NCBI GenBank assembly: GCA_003868215.1
Contig: QWDQ01000007.1
Span: 62,001 to 126,000 of the forward strand
DNA: 64,000 bases
Direction of reading: 5' to 3'
Origin: Pseudophaeomoniella oleicola
Lineage: Eukaryota > Ascomycota > Eurotiomycetes > Phaeomoniellales > Phaeomoniellaceae
Shown: positions 46,362-55,883 of the stretch, piece after piece
Layout of the letters: every line of letters starts with the position of its first letter
How positions within the stretch are numbered: the first letter of the stretch is position 1
Position numbers and translations under genes: made by a program
The notes under the pieces: model-generated
Told to the model about the DNA's origin: nothing
The model's database searches: none
Seen by the model: the letters and a program-made list of their open reading frames with translations, nothing else

Positions 46362-47756
46362 TCATTCATTCACGTCTTCTTTTACTTCTTCTTCATCATC
46401 AACGACAATAACTCCGTTCTTCAACGGCTTCAAGACCTGTTTCGCCGTCTCTCTCTTCATGATGCCATCTGTCACCAGAGCCCCGACATCGCTCGAGACA
46501 ACACACAGCGTGTGCTCGCCGCCCATTTTGATGAAGACCTGATTGCCTTCGTCGACTGGTGGAGCGAGCACGGCGCCACCTGTCGGCATGTCATATTTGC
46601 GGCAGGTGTCGCGGAAGACCTGTAGGGCGTCGAGCCATTCGGGTTCGGAGCAGTGAGGTAAGGGAAATCCGGGGAGGTCCATGGAGACGCGGAGGTCGAG
46701 CGTGCCGAGCCAGACCATGTCGATGGAGGAGCGGCAGGCGGAGAGGATGGCGTCGAGGTTGTAGACGGCGGGGAGGGTTTCGATTTGGAGCATTATCGCG
46801 GCTTGGGCGTTGAGGTTGATGGCGAAGGGGAGGCTGGGGTCGGAAGGGGTGTCGGTTATGGTGGGGATGAGGCGGTAGGGAGGATCTGGTAGGGGGAGCG
46901 CGAAGTGGTCAGTTAAGGAGGTGGTCTTTTTTTGGGCCTGGGGTATGAAGAGATTTGGTGGGGGATTACAAGATCTGGTGCCATTGGCACGGTTTCCGAA
47001 TTTTGCAGCGGAGCAGACCTGTAGAGACGATGCCTTGGTTAGCCGATGGGAATATCAATATGGTTGAGAGAGGTGACGATTAGCAACAAATAATGATGCG
47101 TTAAATGCCAAAGAGCCGTCGTCGCCCTTTGAAGGAAACTCAGGGGTAAGATGGCCACAGTGATAGAATGATGAGCCTTGTTCCTCCTTACATGTTTTGC
47201 TTCCTCCACCGTCTCGACTTGAGGTATGACAATAGAAGCACCGGCATCAAGTGCAAAACCTATTGCTGCGTGATCATGTCCAGGGACACTGACGAGAGGA
47301 GAGGTTATCAACAGCTTGTCATCTTGTTGATGTAACAGTACACAGTAGACTTCTGACTTACCGAACCCAAGGCACAGTGTGTCCTTCGCTCATGAATTGG
47401 ATTTCATGGACCATCTACAGACAAGGTCAGTGACAGCTCCACGGTGAGCATTCGCTCTTCCAGGAGGAAGTGTAAGGCCTGTTGATATCCAATGTACATA
47501 CAGTTGTCATGGTCTCAACGCCACAGCTACTATGCTCCCAATCAACCCAGACAACGTCGTACCCTAAGGTCGCAATCACCCTTGCAGTCGGGACGGTAGA
47601 AAGCCCCATATAATATCCCAACAACCGTGGCCGTTTTCCTTCGTAGGCGTCTCGAATCGCTTTTCGGACATGATGCGGTTGGAACAGAGACGGAGCTCGA
47701 TAGGGAACCATGCCGTAACTTCCAGTTGGAGCAGATGCAGGGTGATGTTCTCCCAT
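46362..47756 (-). CDS. HpcH/HpaI-family aldolase
   Basis: The family makes or cleaves carbon-carbon bonds using pyruvate or acetyl donors and a divalent metal; fungal members are mostly uncharacterised. Five exons: 47756-47502, 47414-47362, 47288-47192, 47018-46970 and 46885-46362 give 325 residues. Motifs: LGYDVVWVDWEHS near residue 65, the R in TVPWVRVPGHD formed across an intron, GASIVIPQVETVEEAKH, the block AAKFGNRANGTRS, then PPYRLIPTITD, IMLQIET (metal-binding Glu) and LGTLDLRVSMDLPG. The fourth intron (84 nt, 46969-46886) keeps the frame without stops, so a simple ORF view adds 28 odd residues; removing it restores the conserved RSxPPxRLIP block. The substrate is unknown. No leader peptide is visible. 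Confidence 0.88.
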
Positions 47757-49548: not shown

Positions 49549-52206
49549 TTACTCGTCATCGTTATAGCCACCTCCCGACCGTCTCCAACCTTCTTCGTGA
49601 CCCCTTGTATTAATGTGAGCTGGTGCCATTCCGATATCGTCTGGTCTTATAGATACTCTTTTCACTGCTTTTGCGTGGCCATTGACCTTCCCGTTGGTCC
49701 TTGGAGCATTGTCAGCCCCTGACCGCATCGGGCGCGGCCCACCGACACCCTCATTGCTGGAAACCGATCGAGATGAGGTCTCTGCCATATGGTGCGGGTT
49801 GTACGTATCAATATTTTCTTTCGCGAAATTGGCCTTTGGCAGTGAAACCGGTCTCCCGTCGGCTGCGGTGGGAGATATATTCGGTTTGCTGCGGCTTAGG
49901 TATCGACTTCGGTAGGATCGATGGTTGTAGTCGTCTATCATGTCATAGGGAGGAGAGTCTTCCGTCGGAACCTGCCATTTCTCCGCTGGGGTCTGCCATC
50001 TTTCTTCTTCAGGCGGAGGATTAGTGTACTGTGGAGTCTCCTCTTCGTATGCGTTCATATCTGGTTGCCTGTGTGGAGTGGCCTGGGACATCGCAGCTTG
50101 TGGCCTGTTTCTTGTGGTTGCATTGGGGTCCCTCTCCGGTTGCCTCTCAGGTTGCCTTTCCGGTTGTCTTTCGGGCACTCTGTCTAGCCGTCGGTCTGCT
50201 TGTCTTCCCGGTTGCCTATCAGGCTCTACACGTTGAGGTGGTGCAGATACAGCGGGTGCAGGGCCATTTCCGTTAGTTGTTCTTTCGGCGTCATTTTTGT
50301 TGATGAGTAAAATGATCCAAACACCAACTTTATCATCACTCCCAAACAGCGGAGTCGCAGTGATCCATATGGGTTGTCCACGCACGGATTGGCCCTCCGA
50401 TTCGCTTCCGTCGTGAGGAATATCCCATCGGACCTTGGCTGTCACTGGGCAATCAGTAGCAAATGAGTCTTGGAGCCCTGCCATAGTGCTTTCAGAGGCC
50501 GAGATTTGCGACAGGAACCGGGATTGATGGAGGTCCTTACCCAGATGGCGGAGCGATGGAGAGACGAAAATGATCCTAAGAGAGCCTGGACGGACTATGA
50601 GGTAGTTCTGGTAGATCCCAGGAAGGCCCTTCGAAGATCCTGATTTGGCGGAAGAGCGATCAATGTTTTGCGCTTGATCCTGAGATTCAGAATCGAGCTG
50701 CTTGATCGTGTTCTCGAGAATTATCCGTCGTTGCGTCTCAGGTGGATCGTTAGGTGTTGGTATCGGGTTCTGTGCATACCTTGTTAAGGTGTTGGATCCG
50801 TTTTGTTCCTGAACGACGGCGGATTCCGGAAGGTCAAACATCTCAGACAGCTCACGAAGACGAGATAGTGGTGAAGAGTTGTCGTTGTCCGCAAGGTCGC
50901 CTCTGGATGCCGAGAACCTTGTTGGTTTATTCTGCAGGAGCTTCTCGAGGCTCTGGAGACCACGTCCATCTTCCACTAGACTGGTCACATCCACCTGTGC
51001 ACCAATCCAATATCGAAGTTTCCCATTGTTATCGAGCAGAGGCGCTATGCTCAGGCAATTAACGAAGGGTGTGCCGTCTCGTCGGTAATTCAGAATTGTT
51101 TCTGTGACCTCTCGACCATGTTCTATTGCCTTACGTAGCCTTTCCATGCTCTGAGGTCGCTTTTGGTGCCCCTGGAGGATCCGACAATTTCTCCCTATGG
51201 TCATCTCTTTGGTGAAGCCTGTCATTTTGTAAAATCCTGGCTTGATTAGCATTGTAGTCCATCACGTAATTCAGCATTGCATACCTGAAGAAGCAAATAT
51301 GATAGGATTATCAGGTTGATTTGGGTCAGTGATGCAGAATGCCTCCGTGAGTCCATTCCCCGCGTTTCTCGTGACCTGCGTGCCAACAATGTCGCCCATT
51401 AAATGTTCTGTGGCTGCCTTGACGAGTCGGAATGTCACAAAAGCCGGTAGAGCTTCGTTGAGTAGAGTTTCAAAGCATCGTCTGCTTTTCATCTCGAAAA
51501 AGCTGTCCAGACATGCAACCGTACGAGGAATCTGGCTTGGCTTCTCTCCATCCAGGGAACGCAGATTGGTTGCAACAGCGTTGGCATACTGCACTGCTTT
51601 CAACGCCTTGGTCATTTCAAGGTACCTGATTAGCGCTGAGACTTCCTGGGGTCGATATCCATGAAGAAACGCAGTAAATTGTGCGAAGGGCTTCGGATCT
51701 CGTATAATGATCTCTAGGTGCTCTGGTGCGAACAGCAACTCGGTCAGTACCTCCATTGAGTTCATAGCCCTAGTCGGTGGTGGTGCTCCGAGATCATAGG
51801 ATGTTTCATCATTGGCAAGGAAGGGTGTTTTCGCCATGTTCCGTTGAAGTTCGAGTGACGGCTCATGTCGTAAGTTATACACGTCAGGGGCAGGCTGCAT
51901 GCTGTATCGGGTATCTTGGGTTGGCTGTACATTTAGACGTGGGTTGGATTCATGCGAGAACGTAGCGACACCACGGCTCGGTCTAGGTTCAGGCATACTG
52001 TTTCGCACTGGCAGCCGATCGCCGTTCAGGTGCTGCAGTTCGCTAACACTGTGAATGACGGCGGTCGTCGGTCTGCTGTTACGTTCTTCCTCCCAACCGG
52101 ACCCTACAGAGTCCTCTCTTGACGGCATACCATTTTGGGCGCCTATCTTTGAACGCCTTTTATCACGACCCAGCCTGAAATTCTGTTTGAAAGTGTCAAA
52201 GCCCAT
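49549..52206 (-). CDS. RGS-LOV blue-light photoreceptor (BcLOV4-type)
   Basis: Two exons, 52206-51285 and 51236-49549, joined by a 48-nt intron that splits the LOV domain; 869 residues. Order: disordered leader; RGS-like helical region at about 145-268 (DPKPFAQFTAFLHGYRPQ, then MTKALKAVQYANAVATNL); LOV domain at about 275-390; linker; a second PAS-like fold at about 515-620 (YLIVRPGSLRIIFVSPSLR, then VGVWIILLI); and a 240-residue disordered tail with ERQP repeats. The LOV core is intact: GRNCRILQG with the flavin-adduct Cys at about residue 325, the flavin-contacting Asn pair in NYRRDGTPFVN and the Gln in WIGAQVDVT. This order matches the fungal RGS-LOV class, where blue light drives reversible binding to anionic membrane lipids. 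A role in light control of G-protein signalling is inferred from the RGS part. Confidence 0.9.
50130..50215. repeat. Coding 12-nt repeat in the RGS-LOV tail
   Basis: On the minus strand the coding sequence repeats a GAAAGGCAACCT-like unit at least four times, giving RQPERQPERQPERDP preceded by degenerate copies (PDRQPGRQADRRLDRVPERQ). The block adds alternating positive and negative charges to the disordered tail. Tandem codon repeats of this kind commonly vary in number between strains. Confidence 0.8.
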
Positions 52207-53566
52207 AACGAAGAAGCCTCAAGTGGGTGGTGATAGTGAAGGAGGAAGAAGATCAGAAGCCAGATCCAAGATGAGGAAAGAGCAGGAACAATGGAAATCT
52301 TATGGAGAATTAGAGAATAGAAGAGCAGATGGCAGGGAGATGATGTGGTGTTTGTCTCATGAGATTCAAATTGAATCAAATGTACGGAGGACAAAGGGTG
52401 GTACCATTCAGGGAAGAGTTGCAGGACCTTGATGTACGAAGACCCAGCCACCTCCGACTCTTAACCTGTCAATCTCTCATTCACTTTCCGTTTACTTGCA
52501 TCCTGGACGGAGTACAGAACACACACTACGTCTGCGTGGATCCCACACCTCGCAAGCTGATCATTGTCCGCTTCTTCCATGATCCATGAAACGTCGAGTG
52601 GCTGGGTGCTTGCCATTGTCTACTTTACGTACAGTAATACAATCCATGCCCATTGTTTGAATCTCGATTAAATTTCGAGTTTATTTTCCGATAAGACGGG
52701 TACGGGTAAAGATAACCTAAAGAAAGTAACTAAGACACCTAATTAAGTACCTACTACGTAGTATAGTTAACGTTACCTTAGGTACCTACCTTACCTAGGT
52801 AAACTACCTTACCTTACCTAAATAAGCCGTGTCATTGTTATAAATATCATTGTAGGCAGGGCCTGGGCAGATCACACTCCCTTCGGCCTTTGGGACTACC
52901 ACGATCATAAATAATCAACTTCAGAGCCGAGATGCATATTCTACAAGTCCAAACCAAGTCCAAGGACTCCTATGATATCTACGGAGACACATGCGTCGTT
53001 TGTCTCACTTTTATTATCATAGGTTGCGTGGCCTGCGAGGTTGGGCGCAATAAAGTACCCTGGTCGCCCAGCCACAAACTTTAGAGACGGGTGAGCTCAA
53101 CAACTCAACCAAATAATATATCTCTTTGTCAACAACCTGCTTAGCCATCATTGTTAGGTCCCAAGGTATGGGACAGATACTATCAAGTAGCATTATATAT
53201 AATTTTGTAAGAAAGTGTGATCAGATCACCGACTCAAGGACTAGCCGTAGGCTGCCGATCGTGTCATCTATCATACCGTCATCTACATCCAAGCTTCCGC
53301 AGTTCCTGACTGGAGTGTATACCACTAGTAGACCTCACCTCCATGACTGAGAGTCTTCCCCCTTCTATGAAACATGCTTCTGACGGATGTGAAGGGCCAT
53401 GTCGAAGACAACATATAGCTCTCGCTGCCTCGTTTGTCTACCGAATGGACATGGCACCTCCGCGGTCATATCTGAAGGCATCTGCATCTCGCAGATGTTC
53501 TCATCGGTGCCGAAATAGTCTCCCCTCGGTCACTCCAATATCGAAGATAACGACGAGTCTGGATTA
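52207..53566. promoter_or_regulatory. Intergenic region upstream of the RGS-LOV gene
   Basis: 1.36 kb between the RGS-LOV start and the VPS29 stop, both leftward, so it carries the photoreceptor promoter. A dense palindromic patch at 52745-52820 contains TACTACGTAGTA, CCTTAGGTACCTACC, CCTAGGTA and tandem CTTAC units. No coding sequence was recognised. Confidence 0.5.
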
Positions 53567-54562
53567 TCATGCTGGTACTGGAACTTGTTTTCTGAATGAA
53601 ACCTTTTCCACTGCAACATTCTCGTTTCCTTTCTCATCCGTCCGCAGCTGGTACACGTAGAGGACAAGGACGTCTCCTTGGACCTGTAAGCGAACATTAT
53701 GTCAGCATTGTTGTATCAAGAGTCACAATTGCAGTCCAGGACAGTAAATCATGATGAAGCTCGAGTCCTTATGCCCTTGAACGGTGTTCATCAAGGATAC
53801 AGTCTTGCGCCTTCTTACGCCAATGACAGAAGGGGCAATGAAGCAGAAGCAGGCCTTCCCCGCCGCAGCCTGTACTTACATCCATCAAGCAGAAACTCGG
53901 CGTGACTTCATGATCGTCTCCCGTCCAACCCCAGCCCATGCTTGGAGCCCCCGTGGCGCTGCCAGGATTGACAAAGAATTTCCCTTCAAGTTCGTACGCC
54001 TCGAATCTATGTGTTCCACCCGACCATAATAATACATCGACATCCATCTGACGAGCCGCGATCAAGAGGGCATCCGCATCCCCCACTGGTATTATCGTTG
54101 AGCCATGCGTGAACCCAATGCGAAGGCTACCATGTGTAACAACTTTTGACAACGCAAGAGACGATGGGTTGGGTGTCGTATGTCCGGGATTATCGGCAGA
54201 AGACAGAAGCGCATCATATGGTCCACGAACGAGCTGTAGATCCGGAGCGACGGAGCGGAGGAAATCATATGTTGGAGGGTCTGTGATGTTGCCTAAGCAT
54301 AGTGTCTGGCCTATCTTCCCTGGAGTGAGAAGCTTTTTGAACTGCGAAAGTCAAAGGTCAACCTTCATTCAATTCCCAAGTTGTGAACATGTTGCTGAGA
54401 GACGTACTTTGGCTGGGATGTCCTGCAAGGCAACATTGTTAGCAGCTGTCGCGGACTGTCGGTGATCATGCGACGGCCAACACTAGACAGAAGAGGTATA
54501 CTTACTGGAGCCCTGTCTGGGATGAATAGGTCCCCGATGATGAGAACGAGTCTCGAGGCCAT
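53567..54562 (-). CDS. VPS29: Retromer subunit Vps29
   Basis: Part of the Vps26-Vps29-Vps35 retromer core that returns receptors from endosomes to the Golgi; it has a metallophosphatase fold but serves as a scaffold. Four exons: 54562-54506, 54422-54408, 54341-53880 and 53683-53567, giving 216 residues. Joined, the start reads [36 protein letters not shown], which matches the family exactly and confirms the 15-nt second exon (DIPAK). Further motifs: LCLGN, LVRG, KIG-like SLRIGFTHGSTIIP, LLWSGGTHRFEAYE and FFVNPGSATGAP. In phosphoesterases the sequence before THRFEA is SGHTH; here it is SGGTHR, with Gly for the first His. The third intron is 196 nt, long for this genome. Insertions near SSADNPGHTTPNPS explain the extra length over human Vps29. 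Confidence 0.95.
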
Positions 54563-54893
54563 GGTAGATGTGATTACAAACAGTACAACCGCAACATGCC
54601 GCAGTCATCGATTGTGTGTAAATACAGTCGCAAGAGCCTAACACCATATGTCCGGTAGTAGGTACAATAGGCTACGTAGAGGTCGTTGCTTGGCAAAACG
54701 TTAACCTTGATAGTACTGGTCCGTACTGTATCCGACTTTCAACAACTACAGTGGGATCATAGCTTCCCCGGAGCTTCGCGCATTGGGAAGACAAAAGTTC
54801 TGAAGATAAATCTACACCAACATCTACAGCCGGCCAACTTTCTTGTGCTCAAGTTGTGCGTTGTTTTGGCTGAATAAACGTCAGGGGGAAACG
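54563..54893. promoter_or_regulatory. Divergent promoter between VPS29 and EAF7
   Basis: 331 bp between two outward-facing start codons, so both genes' promoters and leaders must share this DNA. It contains CTACGTAG at about 54672, the core of the palindrome seen elsewhere in the window. Confidence 0.5.
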
Positions 54894-55883
54894 ATGCCAC
54901 CAAAGCGCAAACTTGGCCGTGCTTCAAATCTCGAGGCCTCTTCTCCTCCAGCTTCAAGCCCTTCGCAGTCAGACAGCCAACAACCGTCAAAGCTTAATGC
55001 TTCTGCCGTTAAGACTCAGGCGCCTGGCGCCCCAACCCTGCAGTCGCTACTCGACGATCCTTGGACGGACGAGCAGGAGATTGCACTCCTGAAAGCGATC
55101 GTACGGTGGAAACCTGTAGGAATGCACAAACATTTCAGAATGATTGCAATCAAACAGTATATGGACGGTCAAGGGTGCGTGAATCCGGAGAAAGACACAC
55201 ACTGCTCGATGCCCGGGATCTGGGAGAAGTTGGCAACGTGGTACAATTTGCCTGTGCTCGATGAGCGGGTAAGTCAAGCCTGTAGTTTCTGCATCGAGAT
55301 ACTGATACTCTGCTATTTTGTACAGGAAGATTCTATCCTAGCCTCACCACCTCAATCACCAAATCCCAGCGTCAAGCCAAAGTCATTACAATCCTCTTCA
55401 ACTTTCCAACCCTTCAGCCTGCCACCAGAATTCCACGACCTTATGTTCGAACGTCGTCTTGCTCCTGAAGGGTCCAAGTCTCCTCCGCTCTCGGCACTTA
55501 GCCGGTCTAGGCGGGGCAGCACTATGCAGTACTCTGAGGAACCACGGTCTTCACCAGCGACAGGTTCCAAAGGACGGAGAGGAGGTAGGAGTACACGCGC
55601 GGCAGGAAGGGCCGCTGCAACTGCGAAAAGAGAAGTGGAAGCAGAGGCGGAAGAAGAGGATGCTGATGCAGAGGGTCAGGAGGCGAGCGGGGATGAAGAG
55701 GAAGAAGATGAAGAAGAAGGAAGTGGGGACGAAGGAGAACAGGAGCAGGAGGAGGAAGAGGAAGATTTGTCGACACGAATAAAGAGGAGAAGATCAGTGG
55801 TATCAGCCACGCCTTCTAGTTCGAAGACCAAAGCACCCGCAGCTCGAGGGCGCGCCCGGGGTCGAGGTAGAGGTAGGAGGTGA
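54894..55883 (+). CDS. EAF7: NuA4 histone acetyltransferase subunit Eaf7 (MRGBP family)
   Basis: Eaf7 joins Eaf3 and Eaf5 in the NuA4 complex and in the TINTIN module that acts during transcription. Two exons, 54894-55268 and 55326-55883, give 310 residues. The CT20 family domain is at about residues 50-125: DDPWTDEQEIALLKAIVRW, then KPVGMHKHFRMIAI and WEKLATWYNLPVLDE. Exon 2 continues with FHDLMFERRLAPE, then an RG-rich segment, a very acidic stretch of about 45 residues (DEEEEDEEEGSGDEG) and a basic end RGRARGRGRGRR. The 57-nt intron (GTAAGTC to TACAG) has no stop in frame, so retained transcripts would add 19 residues. The ATG was chosen at MPPKRKLG because it fits the short basic start of relatives. 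Confidence 0.92.
   Translation: MPPKRKLGRASNLEASSPPASSPSQSDSQQPSKLNASAVKTQAPGAPTLQSLLDDPWTDEQEIALLKAIVRWKPVGMHKHFRMIAIKQYMDGQGCVNPEKDTHCSMPGIWEKLATWYNLPVLDERVSQACSFCIEILILCYFVQEDSILASPPQSPNPSVKPKSLQSSSTFQPFSLPPEFHDLMFERRLAPEGSKSPPLSALSRSRRGSTMQYSEEPRSSPATGSKGRRGGRSTRAAGRAAATAKREVEAEAEEEDADAEGQEASGDEEEEDEEEGSGDEGEQEQEEEEEDLSTRIKRRRSVVSATPSSSKTKAPAARGRARGRGRGRR

Follow-up and report, generated by a model that had tools for sequence, protein, structure and literature searches.

The stretch analysed here, 64,000 nucleotides of Pseudophaeomoniella oleicola DNA (below, the window), carries a gene for a LOV photoreceptor at 49549..52206 on the minus strand, which raises the question whether its product is an RGS-LOV protein of the BcLOV4 type, as the original prediction had it, or a different photoreceptor built from the same parts. 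We call the product the window protein, and the protein with its homologs the window class. Judged by sequence, the window protein belongs to a class sister to RGS-LOV, not to the BcLOV4 type. The best explanation of the whole, to which we give a probability of about 0.75, is a sister-class photoreceptor of the LOV3 type, in which a diverged RGS domain would not act as a GTPase-activating protein (GAP) and recruitment would be released by light. The domain content, the paralogy and the loss of the Galpha-contact residues are supported by computation; the steps of the mechanism we infer.

The LOV gene and the LOV-domain tree

The coordinates given for the gene proved exact. Its two exons, 52206-51285 and 51236-49549, join into an intact frame of 869 aa plus stop, which contains the LOV domain:

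51285..52206, minus strand: exon 1, with ATG at 52206-52204; spliced open frame, start MGFxxFKQNFRL common to the homolog P0001
51237..51284, minus strand: intron of 48 nt, GT-AG (GTATGC...CAG), with a branch-site-like GCTAAT
49549..51236, minus strand: exon 2, with the stop codon at 49551-49549
50977..51357, minus strand: LOV domain, residues 284-394, spanning the intron; from PAS_9 and PDB LOV matches
51184..51186, minus strand: codon of the flavin-adduct cysteine C325, within GRNCRILQG

The intron sits within the LOV domain, and the 48-nt splice yields the LOV-like stretch FASSGFYKMTGF; three other in-frame acceptors (introns of 66, 78 and 90 nt) were rejected, as LOV residues are deleted. 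The start codon is likely right, because P0001, the closest homolog among the matches listed (807 aa; 43% identical, with 99% of the query covered), begins with a near-identical peptide, MGFEVFKQNFRL. Profile searches matched the LOV model, with Pfam PAS_9 on residues 288-392 (E 6.7e-19) and LOV domains as the best PDB matches (E 1e-28), and left the Pfam RGS model unmatched at E<=1. The photochemical residues that had been named are all present: the adduct C325, the Asn pair N357/N367 and the terminal Gln Q388. The last three are identical in 166/166 aligned rows, window included; these rows were chosen by a GxNC[RK]xLQ-type pattern around the cysteine, so that only N357, N367 and Q388 count as independent. 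The window protein is therefore predicted to be an intact-looking blue-light LOV photoreceptor, with flavin chemistry.

A profile search of the organism's own genome (26 Mb, 112 contigs) gave five RGS exon matches, one of which, on contig C55, directly adjoins a LOV match. The gene predicted there (G000 contig C55 ~145797-147902; locus L013:1298-3403, plus strand) has five exons as joined and encodes 629 aa, with Pfam matches to RGS (E 1.4e-14) and PAS_9 (E 2.2e-16), and PF00615 is found in 118 of its 120 listed homologs (best 120 of 887 matches; P0157 and P0158 are the exceptions). As predicted from these matches, it is the genome's canonical BcLOV4-type RGS-LOV gene, separate from the window gene.

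In a tree of 65 LOV domains, the window protein and 31 homologs are split from the C55 protein and 29 homologs with support of 100/99, a split recovered in all 200 bootstrap trees (100%). The two classes jointly are separated from the three outgroup rows (a phototropin, the genome's own WC-1-type domain and a bacterial kinase, all on long branches) at 99/96, and the window class alone at 95/78. The tree is drawn from a subset of the matches, every fourth of each class plus three named ones. Membership in the RGS-LOV (BcLOV4) class thus does not hold, since the LOV domain lies outside that clade and the genome's true RGS-LOV is on C55. Among the findings that the prediction had named as telling against it are a LOV domain outside the RGS-LOV clade and a first domain outside the RGS fold; the former was obtained and the latter, as described below, was not.

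The 174 listed window-class homologs come from the best 120 of 1335 and the best 120 of 438 matches, the latter set obtained via a Hymenoscyphus homolog. Cutting by pattern dropped 9/174 window-class and 9/120 BcLOV4-type rows (at least eight of these window-class rows carry NCRFLQ), and six further window-class rows were too short N-terminally, leaving 160 N-domain rows with the window protein and 112 with the C55 protein. Eighteen species are named in the match lists of both classes, and the organism's own genome has one gene of each.

Some side observations concern these LOV genes. Two Pyrenula species, represented by metagenome-assembled genome (MAG) records, each have two different window-class proteins (P0006/P0257 and P0058/P0249), pointing either to another duplication or to mixed records. 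P0041 of Fonsecaea erecta (1387 aa) joins a window-class protein to an extra PF06966, by fusion or by an error in the gene model. A third LOV gene in the organism's own genome (G000 contig C34:68553-68894, locus L006) has a loop insertion after NCRFLQ that by eye suggests the WC-1 or VVD type.

A worn-down RGS-like domain and a second PAS domain

Two further domains flank the LOV domain:

51382..51759, minus strand: cryptic RGS-like domain, residues ~150-275, including the class hallmark YLExxKAxKAVxYANAVA
50293..50625, minus strand: degenerate second PAS domain, residues 512-622, from the topology of the P0001 model and hhalign

Direct searches gave no RGS assignment for the first of these. 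At E<=1 the Pfam RGS model matched 0/11 window-class proteins (the window protein and 10 homologs), with 6/6 BcLOV4-type proteins above the cut-off, and at E<=10 it matched neither the RGS-like domain alone nor any of 16 class pieces; precomputed annotation places an RGS domain in 0/174 listed homologs, and a PDB profile search with the first domain returned no RGS match. We therefore used fold and profile-profile comparisons. The AlphaFold2 model of the domain (pLDDT 84.9) retrieved only RGS or RGS-homology (RH) domains at Foldseek ranks 1-10 and in VIA-align rows 1-34 of 50, each match being weak. Since hhalign with the N-domains alone was marginal between the classes, we also ran hmmsearch reciprocally, with decoys for comparison, and made a joint core alignment. 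The 160-row N-domain profile scored up to 16.4 bits (median 5.55) against the 112 BcLOV4-type N-parts, and decoys reached at most 1.6 bits when reversed and 1.0 when shuffled; the matches to the BcLOV4-type RGS fall inside the helical domain, and leakage of LOV residues at the C-terminal end of the profiles was looked for and none was seen. The joint core alignment scored 315.59, against a maximum of 315.48 and a median of 304.4 in 120 shuffles, and the structure and sequence registers on RGS7, compared by hand, agree to <=2 residues at both ends. The RGS helical core was thus found by fold and homology in the first domain, which bears out the RGS-like call, though Pfam does not see it; across the window class, alignments and model point to a worn-down RGS domain that is recognisable despite being missed by standard annotation.

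What is missing are the residues that contact Galpha. The contact Glu and Asn of the alpha3-alpha4 loop, which we take to be RGS4 E87/N88, are kept by the BcLOV4 type in 109/112 and 87/112 rows, respectively; in the window class the aligned positions hold Glu in 19/160 and no preferred Asn, and the window protein has P186-Q187-E188 there, in a register that comes from the marginal hhalign alignment. A long helix with the pattern KxxxA-x-YANAVA is found in 160/174 listed window-class homologs and in 0/120 of the BcLOV4 type. Among the pairs from the 18 species in both lists, 16/18 window-class members have the YANAVA pattern and 17/18 BcLOV4-type partners the Glu-Asn pattern. The computations support an RGS domain that, in the window class, has moved beyond what Pfam recognises, lost the Galpha-contact residues and gained a strongly conserved long helix, YLExQKAxKAVxYANAVA. 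RGS-homology domains not known to have GAP function occur in axin, SNX25 and G-protein-coupled receptor (GPCR) kinases; these are among the structural matches and have the RGS fold in common with the window protein, but no sequence relationship to it was detected and their partners are different.

The second PAS fold, also foreseen, is recovered from the model of P0001, where residues 510-612 have PAS topology with block pLDDT of 74-95, and from hhalign; the Pfam search left it unmatched, both in the window protein and in 10 homologs. Whole-protein fold searches of P0001 gave mainly LOV structures in the rows shown (a Brucella LOV-PAS protein first in Foldseek), and the fold therefore rests on model topology and hhalign homology. 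The second-PAS profile matches the BcLOV4-type C-terminal domain with E 7.3e-9 and a score of 52.2, against a null maximum of 27.1 (100); set against the class's own LOV profile it scores 17.8 vs 20.5, not beyond chance. The BcLOV4-type domain itself (C55 protein, residues ~510-629), called 'of unidentified function' in the available part of a review (PMC8993538), is probably a degenerate PAS, because LOV profiles match it with hhalign scores of 28.5 and 26.7, the latter compared with a null that reached at most 25.4 in 100; Pfam PAS_4 gives a sub-threshold match on the C55 protein (E 0.066). The window protein hence has, like RGS-LOV proteins, a C-terminal domain after a linker, in the form of a homologous PAS-like domain, and given this homology the two classes are most readily taken as paralogs along the entire RGS-LOV-PAS chassis. 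The order of RGS-like region, LOV, second PAS and long tail, which is that of BcLOV4, stands as predicted.

Linker, N-terminus and tail

Three segments outside the folded domains bear on how the protein could be recruited:

50812..50868, minus strand: linker segment with a class consensus, residues 431-449 (LSRLRELSEMFDLPESAVV), conserved but without polybasic character
52147..52200, minus strand: basic-hydrophobic motif near the N-terminus, residues 3-20 (FDTFKQNFRLGRDKRRSK), which may serve in membrane binding or as a nuclear localisation signal (NLS)
49549..50283, minus strand: tail, residues 626-869, predicted disordered
50131..50172, minus strand: within the tail, 12-bp minisatellite encoding ERQP repeats (Tandem Repeats Finder, 3.0-3.5 copies, score 56-58)

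The same part of the review gives a polybasic linker helix as a BcLOV4 feature and calls its role speculated (PMC8993538). No polybasic amphipathic helix was found between the LOV and C-terminal domains of the window protein, where the net charge per 18 residues reaches +3, compared with +10 in the C55 protein, whose basic linker is KKTRKKGLFKRLRSKSA; the class consensus of the segment is LRELSEMFDLEESAVV, and the P0001 model has helices at the corresponding position. The suggestion that light makes the protein bind anionic lipids, taken over from BcLOV4, therefore does not carry over. Linker net charge was rejected as a class marker, the class medians being equal. For the linker helix of the C55 protein a low helical moment was computed, 0.21 vs 0.59 for the N-terminus of the window protein, and by this measure the C55 helix is not shown to be amphipathic. 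As an observation apart, the C55 gene, with its basic linker RQSKKTRKKGLFKRLRSK, is a candidate for the light-driven membrane idea.

Nowhere in the window protein is an 18-residue stretch more basic than at the N-terminus, where the net charge is +6, and the best 14-mer there ranks 16/856 by helical moment. Of the listed class members whose sequence begins with M, the window protein among them, 79/169 have the motif, compared with 0/121 of the BcLOV4 type; in the P0001 model it does not form a confident helix. This basic-hydrophobic segment could replace the missing basic linker helix, serving either in membrane binding or as an NLS.

The long tail with ERQP repeats is present, at 244 aa compared with a median of 214 in 162 listed homologs, and in P0001 the tail has pLDDT <50 nearly throughout. 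It had been called unusually charged, which it is not: its charged fraction is 0.291 vs a homolog median of 0.289, and 67/141 homolog tails are at least as charged; its net charge is +1 vs a median of -14. ERQP occurs in 1/174 listed homologs, and a YSVD-like C-terminal motif, present in 82/174 listed class members, is absent from the window protein and from P0001. The tail is ordinary for the class and does not set the protein apart.

Class name, proposed mechanism and surroundings

The window class most probably fits best the little-studied LOV3 type (BcLOV3, LovA, LOV-u), on grounds of class, size, domain content and co-occurrence; the BcLOV4-type name is based on the RGS and LOV content, plus the Pyricularia oryzae member P0221. 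Both names are ones that we infer, since the proteins were likened by description and no LOV3 or BcLOV4 sequence was aligned; no Botrytis or Fusarium names occur among the best 120 of 1335 or the best 120 of 438 matches. The literature, represented here by excerpts, adds two types to the fungal LOV proteins, of which one has an RGS domain and the other lacks any regulatory domain that can be recognised (PMC10056346). In Botrytis and Monilinia they are the LOV4 and LOV3 proteins, respectively (PMC7827745); the LOV3 type goes under the labels PAS/LOV and short-LOV, or is said to have no recognisable regulatory domain (PMC3886904, PMC12941744, PMC10056346). BcLOV3 (Bcin10g03870), MlLOV3 and Fusarium LovA resemble the window protein as a fungal LOV type without annotated RGS, and Verticillium lov-u (PMC7493669) would be of the same type as BcLOV3 and LovA. 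The pairing of sizes is also alike, with MlLOV3 (836 aa) and MlLOV4 ('regulator of G protein', 588 aa) in an excerpt on Monilinia laxa (PMC7827745), and 869 and 629 aa for the window and C55 proteins. These excerpts hold no mention of an RGS or second PAS domain in BcLOV3; the primary BcLOV4 and LOV-survey papers lie outside them and may note a cryptic RGS. In Botrytis, an excerpt reports, the genes for blue-light receptors respond to a light pulse by induction, bclov4 being the sole exception, and light induction of bclov3 is BcWCL1-dependent (PMC10218500), so that in this fungus the two types also differ in their regulation.

The BcLOV4 type (BcLOV4, MoRgs5, Fusarium LovB and here the C55 protein) is collinear with the window protein over RGS, LOV and PAS-like C-terminal domain. 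It differs from the window class in its separate LOV clade, its Pfam-detectable RGS and its retained Galpha-contact residues; the C55 protein differs also in its polybasic linker and in a chain that stops right after the C-terminal domain.

In the mechanism that we propose, the C325-flavin adduct would loosen the contact between the LOV and RGS-like domains via the post-LOV helices, as proposed for BcLOV4, whose RGS seems to keep it away from the membrane in darkness (PMC8993538, in the part available). The RGS-like domain would be an intramolecular or partner-binding module and not a GAP. The adduct would expose a recruitment surface and the protein would go to the membrane, perhaps via the basic-hydrophobic N-terminus; alternatively, the target could be a partner to which the YANAVA helix and the PAS domain hold on. 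As for the tail, it may be a flexible spacer. A more speculative and on balance doubtful extension is that the LOV3-type class is an ancient RGS-LOV duplicate that kept the whole chassis, made of its RGS a light-gated pseudo-RGS that is non-catalytic and has a new conserved interface, the YANAVA helix, and carries at the N-terminus the membrane-binding element that formerly lay in the post-LOV linker. If true, two photoreceptors with different outputs, coexisting in many Pezizomycotina, would go back to a single ancestral light-gated scaffold.

Among the alternatives, the N-terminus may be an NLS and the protein a light-gated nuclear regulator or White Collar complex modulator instead of a membrane protein. 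The clustered K/R of the motif and the BcWCL1-dependence of bclov3, a regulatory link only, would agree with this, but Pfam finds no DNA-binding domain in the window protein and the hydrophobic F3, F6, F10 and L12 would be unusual for a plain NLS, and we hold it to be unlikely. We are more sceptical of a divergent but working light-gated GAP for Galpha: an RGS fold does stand beside a LOV domain, and MoRgs5, the Magnaporthe RGS-PAS protein, is reported in an excerpt to interact with 2/3 Galpha subunits (PMC10056346), yet the contact Glu and Asn are unconserved at the aligned positions, and the Asn-bearing loop seen in 69/112 of the BcLOV4 type is replaced by a variable loop. It is likewise improbable that the first domain is an unrelated helical domain resembling RGS, with N-terminal domains gained separately by the two LOV classes; the weak individual fold scores, the negative Pfam and PDB profile searches and the marginal N-domain hhalign would fit, but the long run of RGS/RH structural matches, a profile signal above reversed and shuffled decoys, and the collinear homology of the LOV and C-terminal domains do not. 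A true BcLOV4 orthologue, with a lipid-binding helix that is exposed by light and tuned by the tail, has the identical domain order, the RGS-like fold and the common PAS-like domain in its favour, but is already contradicted by the tree and further by the separate BcLOV4-type gene in the same genome and by the lack of a polybasic linker helix and of a Pfam RGS, which leaves it highly improbable.

BcLOV4 is a single-component optogenetic tool for membrane recruitment, and a sister class with a common chassis, a degenerate RGS and other output surfaces would naturally lend itself to a comparison of how RGS-LOV-PAS proteins route light. The little-studied LOV3 type would gain a concrete hypothesis, a pseudo-RGS without GAP activity, with the N-terminus and the YANAVA helix as candidate output sites.

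The window has 18 light-response GATC pairs, including one at 53219, vs 14.05 expected; this count was reached in 16/100 shuffles and is hence at chance level. The neighbouring genes are ordinary and encode a calcineurin-like phosphoesterase (53769-54347, minus strand; Vps29-like by eye), an EAF7 chromatin protein (54810-55880, plus strand) and an HpcH/HpaI aldolase (46365-47054, minus strand).
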